Shown one piece after another: positions 976-48,443 of a DNA stretch of 59,024 nucleotides (positions within the stretch are counted from its first letter, which is position 1; each line of letters begins with the position of its first letter). The notes under the pieces were generated by a model that made no database searches, had not been told where the DNA came from, and saw only the letters and a program-made list of their open reading frames with translations. This stretch comes from Hyalangium gracile (lineage in GTDB: Bacteria; Myxococcota; Myxococcia; Myxococcales; Myxococcaceae), in assembly GCF_020103725.1 (NCBI RefSeq), contig NZ_JAHXBG010000044.1, forward strand, positions 1 through 59,024. Direction: 5' to 3'. The position numbers and the translations under genes were made by a program.

Positions 976-2073
976 ATGTCAAGCGTTCAGGGCGCGCGAT
1001 CGGCCATGTTCGAGGCCGTGCGCCGGGAGCTGAGGGACTTCAGCGACCAGGACATCCTTTTCAGTCAGGCGATCGCGGACCGGCTGGGCGTCACGCTGAC
1101 GGACCTGAAGTGCCTGAGCATCCTGGAGCGCACCGGAGCGGTGACGGCGGGGCGGCTGGCCGAGCTCACGGGGCTGACGTCCGGCGCCATCACCGGGCTC
1201 ATCGACCGGCTGGAGAAGGGCGGGTGGGTGCGGCGGGTGCGAGATCCGAAGGATCGGCGGCACGTCATCATCGAGGCGGTGCCCGACAAGGGTGATGCCT
1301 TCGATGCGGCGTTCGGCACCTCGCGCGGTGCGCTGGACGAGCTCATCTCCAGCTACACCCCCGAGCAGCTGGAGTGCATCCTGGACTTCCTCCACCGGGG
1401 CGCGGAGATGCTGCGCGAGGAGACGGCGAGGATGCGGGCCGAGGCCGGGGCTCGGAGTGCGAGCACGCCCGGTGAGGTCTCGCTCCCGCTGCGCGGATTG
1501 ACGAGCGCGCGCCTGAGGTTCGTCTCGGGCGCCTCGCAGGTCACGCTCCGGGCCAGCGCGGAGCTGACGGAGCTGATGGTGGCCCGCTTCGAGGGACGGC
1601 CGCCGGTCGTGCGGGAGGAGGCGGGCACCGTCTCCATCCAGTATCAGCGCTTCTCGCTGCTGGACTGGCGCAAGCTGGGTGCGGACATCGCGCTCAATGC
1701 CTCCATCCCCTGGAGGATCGAGCTGAAGGGCGGTGCATCGAAGCTGGATGCGAGACTGGAGGAGCTGCGGCTGGAGTCGCTCGAGCTGTCCTCGGGCGCC
1801 AGTCAGCTCACGCTGGCGCTACCGCCGCCCTCGGGGACCGTCCCCATTCGCATCGTGGGAGGCGCCAGCGACGTCACCTTCACCCTCCCTGCGAGGACCG
1901 CCGCGCGCATGCAGGTGAAGGGCGGCGCCAGCGCGCTGGCCTTCAACGAGCAGTACCTGGGAGCCGCCGGTGGACAGACGAGCCTGGAGACCTCGGACTA
2001 CAGGAGCGTGGCGGACCGGTACGACTTCGAGGTGATGGGCGGCGCCAGCAACCTGTCCATCAAGAGCCGCTGA
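976..2073 (+). CDS. MarR-family regulator fused to a GGAS-repeat domain
   Basis: A 365-residue protein, more than twice the length of a normal MarR protein. Residues 1-150 form a MarR winged helix: recognition region AELTGLTSGAITGLIDRLEK followed by the wing motif RDPKDRRHV, where Asp and Arg are the family signature. Residues 165-365 are a beta-strand repeat domain with GASQVTL, GGASKLDA, GASQLTL, GGASDVTF, GGASALAF and GGASNLSI. This part is homologous over its full length to the divergent gene product at 141-848. ATG at 976 follows a GAGGA element. A perfect palindrome at 932-946 suggests autoregulation. The added domain may sense a ligand or bind its paralogue; neither is shown by the sequence. 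The 3' end overlaps the convergent esterase gene by 14 bp. Confidence 0.85.
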   Translation: MSSVQGARSAMFEAVRRELRDFSDQDILFSQAIADRLGVTLTDLKCLSILERTGAVTAGRLAELTGLTSGAITGLIDRLEKGGWVRRVRDPKDRRHVIIEAVPDKGDAFDAAFGTSRGALDELISSYTPEQLECILDFLHRGAEMLREETARMRAEAGARSASTPGEVSLPLRGLTSARLRFVSGASQVTLRASAELTELMVARFEGRPPVVREEAGTVSIQYQRFSLLDWRKLGADIALNASIPWRIELKGGASKLDARLEELRLESLELSSGASQLTLALPPPSGTVPIRIVGGASDVTFTLPARTAARMQVKGGASALAFNEQYLGAAGGQTSLETSDYRSVADRYDFEVMGGASNLSIKSR

Positions 2074-2872
2074 GCGAGCCGAGCGCCTCCACCACCTGGG
2101 GCCACTCGCGGGCCAGCGGGTTGATGACCTCGAAGTGGCCGGCGCCCGGCAGCGGGATGAGCCGGACGTCATCTCCGAGCGCCCTGGCCCGCGCGTGGTA
2201 GTCGGTGCTGAGGGAGACCGGGACGGTGTCGTCCTCGGTGCCGTGGATGAGCACCTGCCTCACGCCGATGGGCGCCAGGGCCGACGGAGAGGCCAGGCGG
2301 TAGCGCTCGGGGACCTGGGCGGGCGTGCCTCCGAGGAACTCCGTCACGATGTCATCGCTGAGCCGCAGCTCGTGAGCGCGCACCAGGTCCACCACGCCGG
2401 CGAGCACCACCACCCCGCGAGGGATGAACGGGTCCGCGCTGGAGAGGGGTGAACCGGAAGGCTGGCGCCTTCGCCCGGCCAGCCAGAGGGCCAGGTGGCC
2501 GCCCGCGGAGTGCCCCATGGCCACCACGCGAGACAGGTCCAGGGGTTGGCTCTTTCCGAGCGTGCGCAGGAAGTCCATGCCGCGCGCGACATCCTCGAAG
2601 GTGCCCGGCCAGCCTCCGCCCTCGTGGCCTACGCGGCGGTACTCCAGGCTCCACGTGGCGTAGCCGCGCCGCGCGAGGTCCGCGCACAGGTGGCCCGCGT
2701 GCTCGAGGTTGTACCGGGCGCGCCAGAAGCCCCCGTGCACCATGACGACGACGGGGTGGGGGCCCGGGCCCGGAGGCAGGCGCAGATCACCGAACTGAAA
2801 GGTGAGCTCCCCGTACGGGAGGCGGGCATCCGCGGGCGGGGAGGGCGTCTCGAGCATCCAGAGCGGGTTCAT
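2060..2872 (-). CDS. Alpha/beta hydrolase, esterase/kynurenine formamidase-like
   Basis: A 270-residue cytoplasmic alpha/beta hydrolase. The oxyanion-hole motif HGGFW lies at about residue 46, as in the HGG(G/F)(W/F) hormone-sensitive lipase and kynurenine formamidase group. The nucleophile elbow is GHSAGGH at about residue 119. The acid is probably in the GTEDDTVPV segment, and the final His is GHFEV. The substrate cannot be assigned: small acyl esters or formylkynurenine are both compatible, and no tryptophan-degradation genes are nearby. It is convergent with the MarR gene (14 bp overlap) and 9 bp downstream of the start-side neighbour's stop (2882), so it may be read with that gene. Confidence 0.85.
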   Translation of the reverse strand: MNPLWMLETPSPPADARLPYGELTFQFGDLRLPPGPGPHPVVVMVHGGFWRARYNLEHAGHLCADLARRGYATWSLEYRRVGHEGGGWPGTFEDVARGMDFLRTLGKSQPLDLSRVVAMGHSAGGHLALWLAGRRRQPSGSPLSSADPFIPRGVVVLAGVVDLVRAHELRLSDDIVTEFLGGTPAQVPERYRLASPSALAPIGVRQVLIHGTEDDTVPVSLSTDYHARARALGDDVRLIPLPGAGHFEVINPLAREWPQVVEALGSLSGS

Positions 2873-2881
2873 GGAGCGCCC

Positions 2882-3802
2882 TCAGCTGGTGGCTCCCTCG
2901 AGCCCCGAGAGCCTGCGGTCCTTGACCTTCAGCCAGGCCTGCTGCCGGAAGAGGTACGTGGACTGGACGCGGCGCCAGGTCCACACGTCCTCCAGGGTCC
3001 ACCACTTCGCGGGCGGCTGGATGCCCTTGTCTCGCAGCATGCCGATGCCGCGGTAGCCCACGCCGTTCAGGCCGTAGGCGGAGTTGGACTCCAGCATGAG
3101 GACCTTGTCCGTCGCGGCGTGGTGGTCGACGATCAGGAAGGTGTGGCCGGAGCGCCACTGGTTGCGCCAGCCCTGGATGATCGTCCACGGGTGCGGAGGC
3201 ACGTCCGGAGACGGGGTGTGGAGCCCCATCCCGCTCTCGATGGCGGCCGTCACCGGCGAGAAGTAGTCCTCCGTGGAGACGATCATCATCTGCCGGTGGC
3301 GGCTGGCGTTCCACTCGAACGCCGCGCCGTGCTCGTCGGCGAAGGCCTTCACGATCAGCGCCTCGACGAAGGTGCAGCAGTTGTTCACCTTCGGGGGCGC
3401 CAGCGGCAGGCGGATGCCCGGCAGCTCCCAGGGGTAGCGACCCTGGTCGGGATCATAGTGGTAGTCGAAGAAGGCCTCGAGCAGGCCCGTCAGTCGGCTC
3501 TCGGGGATGGCGAGCGGGTCGTCATCGAAGGGGAGCCGCGGGGTGGGCGGGGGCGTCTCCTCGTCGACGAGCTCCGCGTACTTCTGGGTGCGCCAGCGCA
3601 CGCAGATCCACGTGTCCATGGCGCCCAGGGTGGGCACCTCGAGCCTCGCGTAGTCCGTGTCCGAATTGGGGTAGTTCCGCTTCTCCTCGAGCACGAAGTA
3701 GTCACCGGCCTCGACATAGCCCTCGAACTGGGAGCTGGTGCTGGGGAGGATGAAGCCACGCAGGCGGATGGGGAGCCGAGCGACGCGATAGGTTTCAGCC
3801 AT
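2882..3802 (-). CDS. Possible NlpC/P60- or CHAP-like cysteine hydrolase
   Basis: I chose ATG at 3802 because GGAGG stands 5 bases before it; an upstream in-frame ATG at 3835 has no such site. The protein is 306 residues. The pattern is a Cys within NNCCTFVEA (middle), a His in SGHTFLIVDHH, and a polar residue in LESNSAYGLNGVGYRG. That order (Cys at a helix start, His, then a polar residue) and the spacing resemble the papain-like amidase fold of NlpC/P60 and CHAP enzymes. No signal peptide is visible. I do not recognise the exact family, and the catalytic assignment is inferred. The stop lies 9 bp before the esterase start, so the two may form an operon. Confidence 0.6.
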   Translation of the reverse strand: MAETYRVARLPIRLRGFILPSTSSQFEGYVEAGDYFVLEEKRNYPNSDTDYARLEVPTLGAMDTWICVRWRTQKYAELVDEETPPPTPRLPFDDDPLAIPESRLTGLLEAFFDYHYDPDQGRYPWELPGIRLPLAPPKVNNCCTFVEALIVKAFADEHGAAFEWNASRHRQMMIVSTEDYFSPVTAAIESGMGLHTPSPDVPPHPWTIIQGWRNQWRSGHTFLIVDHHAATDKVLMLESNSAYGLNGVGYRGIGMLRDKGIQPPAKWWTLEDVWTWRRVQSTYLFRQQAWLKVKDRRLSGLEGATS

Positions 3803-43923: not shown

Positions 43924-45231
43924 CTACGGAGCCCGCGCCGGGCGCAGCGCCGCGAGCGTCCGAGCAATCCGCTCCACCTCGGCGGCCTCCAGCCGACTTG
44001 CCCCGAGCCAGTCCCGCGCCAGCTCCCGCACGGTGGCCTCCTCCAGATGAGCGGGCAGCCGCGCCACGAGAGTGGACATCCTCGCGGTGATGCGCGCCAC
44101 CGCCGGCCGCAGCTCCGTCTCCAGGGAGTAGGTGGGGGCACTGGCCTCGACGGGCGTGCGCTGCTGCACGAGCTTGGCGACATCCATCTGCGCTTGGAAG
44201 AACGCGTCGAGCGCCTCATCGGACGGAGGTGTCTGTCCCGGGGGCGTCACCTTGCGCACCTCGTCCCGGAAGGCAGCCCGCACACGGGCCTCCTGAGCGG
44301 TGTCCTCCACGGGCTTGCCTGAGCGCTGCTTGGCCGCGGCGACCCAGGGCATGAGCGCCAGCCGCTCGGCCGTGGCCGCCAGGAGCGCCTGCACGGGCAG
44401 CGCGGTCGGTCCTCCCGCGCCAGGTCCCAGGTAGCGGGCGCGCAGCTGCCCCAGTCGGCCGCTCTCCTCCTGCGCCATCAGCCACGTGTCGAGCCGGGAC
44501 GCCAGCTCGGGCTGATCCGCGCGGACATAGATGGCCACCACATCCCGCGTGAGCGGGCCCAGCAACTCGATGCCCGAGAGTCCCTCGGCCCAGCGCGGAG
44601 CCTCGAGGTTGTTGCTCAGCGCCGCATCCACCTTTCCGGAGGCCAGCGCCTCGCGCACCCCCGCGTTGTCGGGGATGGTCTGGACCTGGGCGTGCTGGAA
44701 GAGGGCTCGGGCCACACGCTCCAGGTGCCCACCCCGGTTCACGGCGACTCGGAGCTCGGGGCGGTCCAGCGCGCGCAGCTCGGACAGCGCCGTGCCCATG
44801 TCTTGCGGATAGCCCCGCGCCAGAGGCGGAGCCTGGCTCGGGCGCCTGAGCAGCAGCACGGCGCCATTGCGGAGCACCGGAACGGTGTAGCGCCCCACCA
44901 CCGAGCGCTCCGGGCGCACGGTGATGCCGCTGTCCGCCAGCTCGAACTTCCCAGCACTCAAGTCCCCCGCCAGCTCGGGCCAGCGGAAGCGGACCCAGGA
45001 GGGCTCGAAGCCCGCATCGGCCGCGAACGCCTCCACCAGCGCCACGGAGAATCCGCTCGGGCGCTCCTGCCTCCAGTCGCTGAAGGGCGGGTAGTCACCG
45101 CTGGTTCCCACGCGGAGCGCGGGCCGCGAAGGCGCGGGGACGGGCCCCGAAGCGCACGCGGCCACCACGCCGAGCATCAAGGCCAACGTCAGCGCGGGGA
45201 AGCTCCGCTGCCACGGACGTCCAGGGTTCAT
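43924..45231 (-). CDS. Exported cyclohexadienyl dehydratase-chorismate mutase fusion
   Basis: ATG at 45231 (GAGGAGCGT just before it) gives 435 residues with a lipoprotein signal ending at Cys26 (VVAAC). Residues 38-275 are a solute-binding type 3 fold like the periplasmic cyclohexadienyl dehydratase PheC: LRVGTSGDYPPFSDW, then GKFELADSGITV. Residues about 275-400 are like secreted AroQ-gamma chorismate mutases: RLALMPWVAAAKQRSGKPVED (first 20: RLALMPWVAAAKQRSGKPVE) and DAFFQAQMDVAKLVQQRT, with the Arg and Lys residues that bind the dicarboxylate. The fusion could turn chorismate into phenylpyruvate or arogenate-derived phenylalanine outside the cytoplasm. It is divergent from a flavoprotein gene. 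Confidence 0.8.
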   Translation of the reverse strand: MNPGRPWQRSFPALTLALMLGVVAACASGPVPAPSRPALRVGTSGDYPPFSDWRQERPSGFSVALVEAFAADAGFEPSWVRFRWPELAGDLSAGKFELADSGITVRPERSVVGRYTVPVLRNGAVLLLRRPSQAPPLARGYPQDMGTALSELRALDRPELRVAVNRGGHLERVARALFQHAQVQTIPDNAGVREALASGKVDAALSNNLEAPRWAEGLSGIELLGPLTRDVVAIYVRADQPELASRLDTWLMAQEESGRLGQLRARYLGPGAGGPTALPVQALLAATAERLALMPWVAAAKQRSGKPVEDTAQEARVRAAFRDEVRKVTPPGQTPPSDEALDAFFQAQMDVAKLVQQRTPVEASAPTYSLETELRPAVARITARMSTLVARLPAHLEEATVRELARDWLGASRLEAAEVERIARTLAALRPARAP

Positions 45232-45417
45232 ACGCTCCTCGAGCCCCACGGTACGGCCGGAGGGCCAGCTCCAGCTTCTCCCGCAGGCTGAAGAATTTTC
45301 AAAGCCGCGCCCGCCGCTCGTGGGCCGGGGCCCCGGCTGGACTTCAATCGCCACCTCGTCTTAATTTCTGAAAATCCGGTTTTGAGCGTTGTTCCTTGTT
45401 TTTCGGAGATAACGGGC

Positions 45418-46743
45418 ATGTTCGACGCAATTGTCATCGGGGCGCGCTGCGCGGGAGCGGCGACGGCGCTGCTGCTCGCACGCAAGGGCCACAAGGTGCT
45501 GGTGGTGGATCGCTCCACCTTCCCCAGCGACGTCATTTCCACGCACTTCCTCTGGCCTCACGGCACCTCGTACCTGAACCGCTGGGGGCTGCTGGACCGG
45601 GTGCTCGCCCAGACGCCGTCGCACACCGTCATCCACATGGTGAACGAGGGCATCCCGCTGAGCGGCAGCGTGCCGGTGGAGCTGGTGCGTCAGTACTTCC
45701 AGCAGCTGCACGGGGACGACTCGGGGGTGGTGCAGCGCTACGCCTCGGTGCGGCGGCGCGTGCTGGACAAGATCCTGGTGGACGCGGCCGTCGAGGCCGG
45801 CGCCGAGGTGCGTGAGGGCTTCGTCGTCGAGGAGCTGATCTCCGAAGGAGACCGGGTGGTGGGCATCCGGGGGAAGACGCGCCAGGGGGCTCGGGTGGAG
45901 GAGCGGGCGCGCGTCGTGGTGGGCGCGGACGGGCGCAACTCGTTCGTCGCTCGGACGCTGAAGCTGCCCAAGTACGACGAGCGCCTCAAGTGCACGTTCG
46001 CCTACTGGACGTACATCTCGGGCTTCAACCTCCAGGAGGCGCGCATCCACCGTCGAGGGCGGCTGGCCGCGGCGGTGGTGCCCACCAACTTCGGCCAGAA
46101 CATGACGCTGGTGTGGGGGCCCAGCGAGTGGTCGGAGACGTTCCGCCGGGACGTGGAGGGCAACTTCCACCGGACCCTGGACTTCGTGAGCCCGGAGCTC
46201 GGGGAGATCGTCCGCACCCAGGGCAAGCGCGAGGAGCGCATCTACGGCACGGTGGACCAGGCCGCCTACCTGCGGCCCCTCTACGGCGCCGGCTGGGTGC
46301 TGGCGGGGGATGCGGGCTCCTTCAAGGATCAGTGCACGGCCACGGGGATGACGCACGCGTTCCGGGACGCGGAGCTGGTGTCCACGGCGCTGGACGCGGG
46401 GCTGTCCGGGCGACAGCCGCTGGAGGTGGCGCTGAAGAACTACGAGAGCCGCCGCCGCAGCCAGTCCGCCGCCGCCTACTACGACTACGTGTGCACGCTG
46501 GCGGAGATGCGCCCGCTGCGCCACGACGAGCTGCAGCTCTTCGTCGTCCTGCGCGGCAACCAGGAGGAGACCAACCGCTTCATCGCCACGTACGCGGACA
46601 TCGCGCCGATGTCCGAGTTCTTCCAGGCCTCCAACCTGCTGCTGCTCAGTGACGCCGCGAAGGAGACCTCGCGCGACCACGCCATCTTCACCAACTTCGA
46701 GACCACGTCCCGGCAGTACCACCAGAACCTCTTCGCCGCCTGA
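45418..46743 (+). CDS. FAD-dependent oxidoreductase, geranylgeranyl reductase/halogenase-like
   Basis: ATG at 45418 gives 441 residues. FAD binding is by the N-terminal DAIVIGARCAGAATALLLAR motif, the second GD motif GWVLAGDAGSFKDQ, and the middle VVGADGRNSFVAR (DG). This is the PHBH-like fold shared by aromatic hydroxylases, geranylgeranyl reductases and flavin-dependent halogenases. The halogenase WxWxIP motif is absent. It is followed 20 bp later by an alpha-oxoamine synthase, suggesting a small biosynthetic unit. The start region is AT-rich, so a promoter is likely. Substrate unknown. Confidence 0.8.
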   Translation: MFDAIVIGARCAGAATALLLARKGHKVLVVDRSTFPSDVISTHFLWPHGTSYLNRWGLLDRVLAQTPSHTVIHMVNEGIPLSGSVPVELVRQYFQQLHGDDSGVVQRYASVRRRVLDKILVDAAVEAGAEVREGFVVEELISEGDRVVGIRGKTRQGARVEERARVVVGADGRNSFVARTLKLPKYDERLKCTFAYWTYISGFNLQEARIHRRGRLAAAVVPTNFGQNMTLVWGPSEWSETFRRDVEGNFHRTLDFVSPELGEIVRTQGKREERIYGTVDQAAYLRPLYGAGWVLAGDAGSFKDQCTATGMTHAFRDAELVSTALDAGLSGRQPLEVALKNYESRRRSQSAAAYYDYVCTLAEMRPLRHDELQLFVVLRGNQEETNRFIATYADIAPMSEFFQASNLLLLSDAAKETSRDHAIFTNFETTSRQYHQNLFAA

Positions 46744-46763
46744 GCCCTCCCGGAGAACCCACC

Positions 46764-48443
46764 ATGAACCCGACGACGACACAGCCGCGCGAGGACGACG
46801 AGCTCATCGGCAGCATCCTCACCGCCGCGGAGAAGGCCTCCCAGAGCTTGAAGGGGCGCAGCCTCGAGGAGCTGCTCTCCACGCCCGAGAGCCGCGACAC
46901 CCTGCGGCACTGCGCCACGGAGATGGGAGACGCCGCGCTGCAGGTCTCCGAGATGATGCGGAACTGGGCCAGCCACATCCCCTGGGAGTCCCTCATCGCG
47001 CTGCGCCCCGAGCCCCAGGCCCCGAGCGACGACGCCCCCGTGCGCGCCCTGTGGAGCTTCCTCAGCGAGCAGTTCCCGCACGTGCGCTCCTCGCTGGAGG
47101 AGATGTGGCAGCCGGCGCACCTGCGCCGCAAGGTGGACCCGGACGAGGAGTACGCGCTCGACAAGAACACCTATGACTTCTACCGGCCCGCGGGCAGGGA
47201 CCTGCTCAAGCGCACGGAGGAGTACTACGGCTGGGTGGAGGCGCGCCGTCGGACGGAGACCTGGCACTACTCGCGGACGCTGGAGGTGACGCCCGGCAGC
47301 AACGCCATCATCACCAACGACACGGGGCGCCGGACGCAGGGCATCAACTTCTCCTCCCAGGACTACCTGTCCTTCAACATCCACCCGGCCGTGCGCGAGG
47401 CGGCGATCCGCGCCCTGCACGACATCGGTCCGCACAGCGCGGGCTCGCCGATGGTGGTGGGCAACACGAAGATCTCCGAGGAGCTGGAGCGGGCGCTCGG
47501 CGAGCTGGTGGGGCTGGAGCACGTCACCCTCTTCCCCACGGGCTGGGGCGCCGGCTTCGGCTCGGTGGTGGGACTGGTACGACAGGAGGACCACGTCGTC
47601 ATCGACCGGCTGGCCCACGCCTGTCTCCAGCAGGGCGCGCGCGCGGCGACGAAGAACGTCATCCGCTACGAGCACCTGAACCTGGAGGCGGTGCGCCAGC
47701 ACCTCAAGGACATCCGTAGCCACGACACTCGCAACGGCATCCTGGTGGTGACCGACGGCCTGTTCTCGGTGGACGCGGACTGGCCGGACCTGGAGCTGCT
47801 GCAGAACATCTGCCACGAGTACGAGGCCACGCTGCTGGTGGACGTGGCGCACGACCTCGGCGCCATGGGCCCCCGGGGCTCGGGGGTGATCGGGCTCCAG
47901 AACCTGCTCGGGAAGATCGATCTGGTGATGGGGGCCTTCTCGAAGAGCTTCGCCTCGAACGGTGGGTTCCTGGCCTCACGCTCGCCGGCGGTGAAGCAGT
48001 ACGTGAAGATGTTCGGCGGCTCGCACATGTTCTCCAACGCCCTGTCTCCGGTACAGACGGCGGTGATCCTCAAGTGCGTCCAGATCATCCGCTCGCCGGA
48101 GGGGGACACGCTGCGCGCGAGCCTCATGGAGGCCGTCCACGCCCTGCGGGATGAGCTCACGAAGCGGGGGCTGACGTGCATGGGCTCGCCGTCGCCCATC
48201 GTCCCGCTGCTGATCGGCAACGAGAAGCTGGCGCGCACCGTGAACCGGCTGCTCTTCGACCGGGGCGTGCTGGCCTTCATGGTGGAGTTCCCGGTGACGC
48301 CCATCGGCGCGTCGCGCTTCCGGCTGCAGGTGCAGGCGGCCCACAAGCCGGAGGAGGCCCGCGAGGCCGCGCGCATCATCGACAAGGCCATCGCCGACGC
48401 GCGCGCCCACCTGTCGAGCGCCTTCGGCACCGGTCTGGTCTGA
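46764..48443 (+). CDS. Alpha-oxoamine synthase-like PLP enzyme with N-terminal extension
   Basis: A 559-residue enzyme; the alpha-oxoamine synthase family (8-amino-7-oxononanoate synthase, serine palmitoyltransferase, ALA synthase, CqsA) is about 400. Residues about 1-150 are an extra helical region with no recognised domain. The catalytic part has INFSSQDYLSFNIHP, GSPMVVGNTKISEELE, the PLP-phosphate and base region DVAHDLGAMGPRGSG, and the Schiff-base lysine in GAFSKSFASNGGFLAS. Such enzymes condense an amino acid with an acyl thioester and release CO2. Myxobacteria make sphingolipids, so serine palmitoyltransferase is one option. It is coupled to the flavoprotein gene. Confidence 0.85.
   Translation: MNPTTTQPREDDELIGSILTAAEKASQSLKGRSLEELLSTPESRDTLRHCATEMGDAALQVSEMMRNWASHIPWESLIALRPEPQAPSDDAPVRALWSFLSEQFPHVRSSLEEMWQPAHLRRKVDPDEEYALDKNTYDFYRPAGRDLLKRTEEYYGWVEARRRTETWHYSRTLEVTPGSNAIITNDTGRRTQGINFSSQDYLSFNIHPAVREAAIRALHDIGPHSAGSPMVVGNTKISEELERALGELVGLEHVTLFPTGWGAGFGSVVGLVRQEDHVVIDRLAHACLQQGARAATKNVIRYEHLNLEAVRQHLKDIRSHDTRNGILVVTDGLFSVDADWPDLELLQNICHEYEATLLVDVAHDLGAMGPRGSGVIGLQNLLGKIDLVMGAFSKSFASNGGFLASRSPAVKQYVKMFGGSHMFSNALSPVQTAVILKCVQIIRSPEGDTLRASLMEAVHALRDELTKRGLTCMGSPSPIVPLLIGNEKLARTVNRLLFDRGVLAFMVEFPVTPIGASRFRLQVQAAHKPEEAREAARIIDKAIADARAHLSSAFGTGLV

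Follow-up and report, generated by a model that had tools for sequence, protein, structure and literature searches.

The window, i.e. the whole stretch of 59,024 nucleotides of Hyalangium gracile that was analysed, carries on its minus strand a gene predicted to encode an exported fusion of a cyclohexadienyl dehydratase (CDT) with a chorismate mutase (CM), next to a divergent gene pair on the plus strand. The features of the locus are listed below with the basis of each assignment.

43924..45231, minus strand: coding sequence of the predicted exported CDT-CM fusion, 435 aa plus stop (ORF, translation, domains, orthologues, dN/dS)
45154..45231, minus strand: lipoprotein signal peptide, residues 1-26, with lipobox V-A-A-C26 (sequence, Cys26 conservation, helix 12-26 in the AlphaFold2 model)
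44422..45126, minus strand: CDT/PheC-like solute-binding domain, residues 36-270 (Pfam SBP_bac_3, fold, residue table)
43939..44400, minus strand: AroQ-gamma chorismate mutase domain, residues 278-431 (NCBIfam, fold of the isolated domain, residue table)
45235..45239, minus strand: AGGAG, a possible but weak ribosome-binding site at a short spacing of 3 nt before the ATG (sequence read)
45382..48443, plus strand: divergent FAD oxidoreductase (45382-46743) and N-terminally extended BioF-like oxoamine synthase (46764-48443), not part of the fusion system

According to the ORF list, the fusion gene extends from an ATG at 45231 to the stop codon at 43924-43926. Its frame is open upstream as far as a GTG at 45354, and the signal peptide begins at the ATG. 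A promoter and terminator scan returned no match. The stretch V-A-A-C26, which we take to be a lipobox, ends in a cysteine that is invariant in all 14 aligned family members (window included) and the protein is, as judged from its sequence, an exported lipoprotein. The overall anatomy, consisting of a signal, a CDT-like domain and an AroQ-gamma domain, can be regarded as practically certain.

The CDT half is matched by the Pfam model SBP_bac_3 at residues 39-269 (E 1.4e-20). The CM half is matched by CM_2 at residues 282-357 with E 7.5e-6 and 26.5 bits, slightly below the 27-bit cut-off, and the same model retrieved the fusion protein at 28.9 bits, above the cut-off, in a genome-wide search. 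The NCBIfam model TIGR01806, which describes the gamma subclass of AroQ, covers residues 279-385 (E 2.1e-9) with 37.5 bits against a model cut-off of 74.15; this value is reached by the fusions of four beta-proteobacterial genomes and not by those of Sorangium, Binatota and one acidobacterial genome.

An AlphaFold2 model of the fusion protein was built from a 49-row alignment and displays a mean pLDDT of 92.4 and a pTM of 0.88. Its five best Foldseek matches are chains of 8cq4, 8cq6 and 8pnh aligned across both domains, and the five closest solved chains in a sequence search are ancestral CDTs and exported CM/CDT fusions (E 5e-27 to 9e-24). The top ranks of VIA-align are occupied by single amino-acid-binding proteins and CDTs at Z values of about 20-22, with 8pnh, 8cq6 and 8cq4 tied there at 20.6-21.1. 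Comparison of the whole model with 8cq4 and 8cq6 yields an rmsd of about 23-24, the two domains not superposing as one body, so the relative domain placement is not settled by the model. Modelled alone, the C-terminal domain (pLDDT 94.7) retrieved 23 chains at E <= 0.001, every one a chorismate mutase, with Z values of 20.1 for 8pnj, 18.5 for 2gbb and 16.6 for 2fp2; secreted AroQ-gamma mutases range from about 13 to 20, and E. coli CM (1ecm) is found at 7.6. The initial annotation had proposed a PheC-like half followed by an AroQ-gamma-like half behind a lipoprotein signal. Both halves and their order are borne out by the Pfam and NCBIfam matches and by the Foldseek hits to 8cq4, 8cq6 and 8pnh, and the signal agrees, by sequence, with the lipobox and the conservation of Cys26. 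The structural comparison which it had suggested likewise places the whole model with the exported CDT-CM fusions and the C-terminal domain with the secreted AroQ-gamma mutases.

Exported fusions of this type are described as extremely rare and are known from nine non-pathogenic beta/gamma-proteobacteria (Stocker et al. 2023, PMC10520331). Seven of them were tested, of which six displayed both activities in vitro and one was insoluble; neither feedback inhibition, nor evidence of channelling, nor a catalytic gain from fusion is reported (PMC10520331). The published CDT-CM and CM-CDT fusions (8cq3, 8cq4, 8cq6, 8pnh, 8pnj) share with the window protein an export signal and a PheC-like domain joined to an AroQ-gamma mutase. 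The domain order is that of the beta-proteobacterial CDT-CM enzymes, whose catalytic Lys and Glu are kept, and the identity to two solved CDT-CM chains amounts to 30-32%. The window protein differs from the published fusions by its lipoprotein signal, the absence of the CDT cysteine pair, the R72Q replacement accompanied by R75, and an occurrence in other phyla. The knock-out replacements of the published work were made at the equivalents of CM Lys60 and CDT Glu173 (PMC10520331). These correspond to K301 and E210 in the window protein, and their presence is counted in favour of the explanation preferred below.

The active site of the CDT half was compared residue by residue to PheC of Pseudomonas aeruginosa (5hpq, 3kbr). 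The folds are alike, with Z values of 20.4 and 20.9 over 221 and 216 residues, respectively, and other amino-acid-binding proteins tie with these scores. The equivalents of PheC Tyr22, Trp60, Asn128, Asn152 and Glu173 are present as Y47, W84, N165, N189 and E210, the latter being the general acid. Four positions are replaced, namely K100 by A124, T132 by H169, N133 by L170 and T169 by S206, the last change being conservative. The nine residues therefore read Y W A N H L N S E in the window protein and Y W K N T N N T E in the published fusions, all nine PaCDT residues being conserved in that set (PMC10520331). In addition, Lys225 of 8cq4, which contacts the sulfonate of MES, i.e. the acid group of the ligand (PMC10520331), is replaced by V232. 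A valine occupies this position in the 14 Myxococcaceae sequences and in Sorangium. The window protein also departs from P. aeruginosa PheC by the lack of the cysteine pair and by the attached mutase. With such replacements, the CDT activity on prephenate could be lost; the chance that the window protein retains it is judged slightly less than even.

The CM half keeps R290, K301 and R375, the equivalents of R49, K60 and R134. R72 is replaced by Q313, with an arginine (R316, position 75) three residues further. V317, A352, K353 and Q356, at positions 76, 105, 106 and 109, are of the types reported for the published fusions: Val, Lys and Gln at 76, 106 and 109 are as found there (Lys106 in all but one), and Ala at position 105 is that of the published CM-CDT proteins, the published CDT-CM proteins having Ser. 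Compared with secreted AroQ-gamma mutases (2fp2 of M. tuberculosis, 2gbb and 6cnz; Z 16.5-18.5), the same all-helical gamma-type fold is combined with the changes R72Q, Q76V, T105A, E106K and E109Q and with an attached CDT-like domain. The equivalents of R49 and K60 are kept in all 82 aligned sequences that include a CM, and at positions 76, 105, 106 and 109 the V-, A/S-, K- and Q-type states known from the published fusions predominate, with exceptions. R72 is lost in 22 of the 82 sequences, and position 75 is then Arg or Lys in 22 of 22 cases, as opposed to 13 of the 60 sequences that retain R72. This pattern corresponds to about three changes on the tree, too few to reach significance there, and is no more than suggestive of a positive charge that was relocated rather than lost. 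The mutase might be weakened by R72Q; CM activity of the window protein nevertheless appears likely.

The formation of phenylpyruvate, as put forward in the initial annotation, is thus upheld in part: the general acid E210 is kept, K100, T132 and N133 are lost and R72 is replaced by Gln. The loss of key binding residues in both active sites, which would have spoken against the proposal, is likewise partial: it concerns some of the CDT residues and R72 of the CM, and both catalytic residues remain.

The gene appears to be maintained by selection. The window gene gives dN/dS ratios of 0.21 and 0.20 with its two closest relatives. Ratios of 0.16, 0.27 and 0.21 were obtained for three further close pairs, and comparisons to eleven more distant relatives range from 0.27 to 0.50, the CM half reaching up to 0.58; these higher values are counted against the explanation preferred below. 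The fusion gene is under purifying selection in both halves. A pseudogene reading is not favoured, the ratio being below 1 in every comparison, though one family copy (G005) is decayed. The same genome encodes a CM-PDT protein together with a second Pfam match to prephenate dehydratase, and a CM protein that by eye resembles a prephenate dehydrogenase-CM. Since cytoplasmic PheA-like and TyrA-CM-like proteins are present, the supply of phenylalanine probably does not depend on the exported fusion.

The initial annotation had also taken the divergent pair as a hint that the fusion protein could feed a biosynthetic route, a proposal that must now be considered highly improbable. It is favoured by adjacency, in this genome alone. 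The FAD oxidoreductase and oxoamine synthase form an independent two-gene unit present in 4 of the 96 family genomes, that of the window included, and the pair was not found in any of the 13 orthologue regions or in one remnant region (the G040 contig ends about 0.8 kb upstream). It is located on another contig in G040, about 323 kb from the fusion gene in G035, and also in G080, a genome in which the search yielded no fusion gene. The fusion gene of Hyalangium versicolor is separated by about 130 bp from a homologue of the kinase gene that is located past the pair in the window. Beside the fusion gene, no gene partner common to the whole family was found, transporters and receptors included, in neighbourhoods called with a simple gene caller that overlooks some genes (among them the fusion in L035). 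The contexts in Myxococcaceae are common to some close relatives only. In the metagenome-assembled genomes (MAGs) of delta/Myxococcota, the gene is often part of a common block which, by eye, we take to resemble NAD synthetase, cold-shock protein and aconitase, and a different common block is observed in Acidobacteriota; these blocks are read as vertical synteny and not as function.

Within the family of the window, the full-length fusion was found in 14 of 96 genomes (the window's own counted), family matches spanning the SBP domain alone being excluded from this count. The other 13 copies are 57-86% identical to the window protein. The 14 carriers are confined to three genera, where they represent 5/7, 5/6 and 4/4 of the genomes, and the search of the 79 family genomes of other genera yielded no fusion gene. 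The G005 locus (L018/L047) is a decayed remnant of the fusion gene in a genus that contains intact copies, and in G002 a short additional fragment of the CDT region (L041 7829-7987) is located immediately downstream of the orthologue. At the level of the phylum, 15 of 195 genomes gave a full-span profile match.

When GTDB genomes were scanned with a mixed alignment, at least 510 relatives were obtained, the best 80 of which were retained and correspond to 79 loci. The scan employed two short peptide patterns, one of them spelling the H/T-L/N motif, and its results were ranked by likeness to the window protein, so that the shares of residue types given below apply to the sampled sequences. The best 80 of the at least 510 relatives include Hyalangium versicolor, Archangium lansinium and Sorangium cellulosum So ce26, many Myxococcota/Deltaproteobacteria MAGs, a Binatota MAG, Acidobacteriota MAGs, more beta-proteobacteria, and an Opitutae (Verrucomicrobiota) MAG that groups among the beta-proteobacterial sequences in the trees. 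Alignments A3 and A4 cover 48 and 47 of the 79 loci, respectively, and all 49 sequences of A3, selected as fusions, match SBP_bac_3, CM_2 and TIGR01806. The fusion thus occurs in Myxococcota, Binatota, Acidobacteriota and, as a MAG, in Verrucomicrobiota, the non-proteobacterial records being mostly MAGs that may be mislabelled. This distribution is new: no report of a CDT-CM fusion in Myxococcota or Acidobacteriota was found in the open-access literature searched.

In 13 acidobacterial loci (L082, L085-L088, L090, L094, L095, L098, L112, L115, L117, L124), the ORFs are 785-1022 aa long and the fusion forms the C-terminal end behind an additional N-terminal domain. Four of the 13 were scanned (L085, L088, L090, L115) and contain BNR_2, SBP_bac_3 and CM_2 in this order, all exceeding the Pfam cut-offs; the BNR domain of these four proteins is predicted to be sialidase-like. 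The other nine loci were assigned to the three-domain type by length and by the common sequence preceding the CDT.

The active-site residues were tabulated from one alignment of 96 sequences, reduced to 93 by removal of L050, L051 and L052, which are copies of L006, L005 and L009. The states at K100, T132 and N133 are K-T-N in 32 sequences, A-H-L in 45, P-I-L in 14, and P-H-L and P-A-L in one each. K-T-N is found in P. aeruginosa PheC, in both of the published fusions tabulated, in the beta-proteobacterial fusions, in monofunctional CDTs and in the Opitutae MAG; A-H-L is the state of the window, Myxococcota and others, and P-I-L that of Acidobacteriota. The sample favours fusions and, via one scan pattern, H-L/T-N motifs. 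Cysteines occupy the two 8cq4 cysteine columns in 30 of the 32 K-T-N rows and are absent from these columns in the 45 A-H-L rows; the acidobacterial rows have, by eye, two Cys near them. The Glu173 equivalent is Glu in 93 of 93 sequences, Asn128 and Asn152 are kept too, and Thr169 is Thr or Ser bar two Ala. All three of K100, T132 and N133 are replaced in 61 of the 93 sequences, each of which retains the catalytic CDT Glu and CM Lys and contains at least the beginning of a CM domain. Both catalytic residues are invariant in the 49-row alignment, and the Lys is found in 82 of 82 CM sequences.

A CDT half that reverted to a pure binder would account for the loss of K100, T132 and N133 (and of the Lys225 equivalent in Myxococcaceae) with retention of the fold. 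The CM would then make prephenate, the solute-binding half would hold prephenate or phenylpyruvate, and the protein would act as a chorismate sensor. CDTs are descended from amino-acid-binding proteins (PMC7683729), and chorismate sensing was proposed by Stocker et al. (PMC10520331). This reading is nevertheless considered fairly unlikely, as a catalytic Glu conserved in 93 of 93 sequences is needless for a pure binder, and the family has no common receptor or transporter gene nearby, as noted above. It is quite improbable, on the other hand, that the CDT half applies its decarboxylative-dehydratase chemistry to another cyclohexadienyl compound, e.g. arogenate or a modified prephenate, with a different product for the clade. 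The concerted replacements near the acid group, the preserved general acid, the separate group in the tree (see below) and the acidobacterial branch, with its P/I/L set and mostly an extra N-terminal domain, would agree with such a change of substrate; the CM half is still chorismate-mutase-like, and a chorismate mutase yields prephenate.

In the CDT tree, 64 changed rows (60 of the 61, the three duplicates and L142) fall on one side of a branch with a support of about 90, below the starred level; L077, which ends at a contig edge, is in the residue table and was left out of this tree. The same 64 rows, hereafter clade 2, which may also include stand-alone members or other residue states, form a weak grouping in the CM tree (support about 64). 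Both are quick trees, and the CM tree is based on 126 columns, excluding the proteins of CM-CDT order. The sequences point to a new divergent clade, spread across several phyla, whose CDT active site is rebuilt. The hypothesis that all fusions of CDT-CM order had one origin and form one clade is not rejected (p-AU 0.239), and the separation of all fusion CMs from nine monofunctional CMs gives a p-AU of 0.772. The former value, together with domain order and folds as in the beta-proteobacterial CDT-CM enzymes and the conservation of both catalytic residues, would fit an ordinary bifunctional enzyme that converts chorismate to phenylpyruvate with the kinetics of the published fusions, the changed residues being neutral. 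We hold this to be possible though rather doubtful, because residues that are constant in the published active enzymes differ in 61 of 61 clade-2 sequences; it overlaps with the explanation preferred below.

Many clade-2 sequences have, by eye, a hydrophobic stretch ahead of the CDT, with a lipobox pattern in 16 of 34 A-H-L loci. A lipobox pattern or clear signal beside the CDT is seen in 1 of 14 P-I-L loci, which are mostly preceded by a further domain, and neither was found in the 45 residues read of L053 and L071. In the CDT tree, the Sorangium cellulosum So ce26 fusion (L053 5001-6176) is placed together with those of the Myxococcaceae, a position suggestive of gene transfer.

Our preferred explanation, at a probability of roughly 0.5, is that the protein is a lipoprotein enzyme of the CDT-CM kind which is exported, stays anchored to the membrane and acts on chorismate, and which belongs to a divergent clade. 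The odds attached to the various explanations are judgements and overlap. The protein would be exported and then lipidated at the lipobox. Its AroQ-gamma domain would most likely convert chorismate to prephenate in the periplasm or at the cell surface, and the solute-binding domain would most likely bind the prephenate produced. The CDT half probably still catalyses an acid-assisted dehydration/decarboxylation with the retained Glu, using a rebuilt pocket for the acid group of the ligand. As no catalytic gain was seen in the published fusions (PMC10520331), common export or sensing is a better reason for the fusion. The likeliest use would be to intercept chorismate that escapes from lysed cells, whether it then serves as a cue or is scavenged, a role that is advanced tentatively and with low confidence.

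The puzzle of a location outside the cytoplasm, which the initial annotation had raised, is the same as that found in print: what cells gain by exporting chorismate mutases and PheC is a standing question, and the role of the published fusions was left open with the proposal that chorismate from lysed bacteria is sensed (PMC10520331). A fusion reported in nine beta/gamma-proteobacteria (PMC10520331) yet found across several phyla, including predatory myxobacteria, provides in the latter a direct test bed for this idea. The second clade also constitutes a natural set of coordinated CDT pocket changes, by which pocket residues can be linked to dehydratase activity. On a broader and unlikely view, clade 2 would be a distinct, widespread exported family of Myxococcota, Binatota and Acidobacteriota combining a CM with a re-tooled CDT whose ligand pocket is new, as a dedicated detector or scavenger of chorismate from lysed cells, one branch being tethered to a sialidase-like beta-propeller. 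Such a device would be useful to predatory and scavenging soil bacteria.

Other domain arrangements were encountered. At L144 (G112, 1501-3663), a SpoIID domain precedes in frame a PheC-like domain of the canonical type, and two Pseudomonadales MAG proteins (L107 4134-5687 and L109 4134-5666) have their domains in the opposite order, CM before CDT, the CM being preceded by a long N-terminal stretch.
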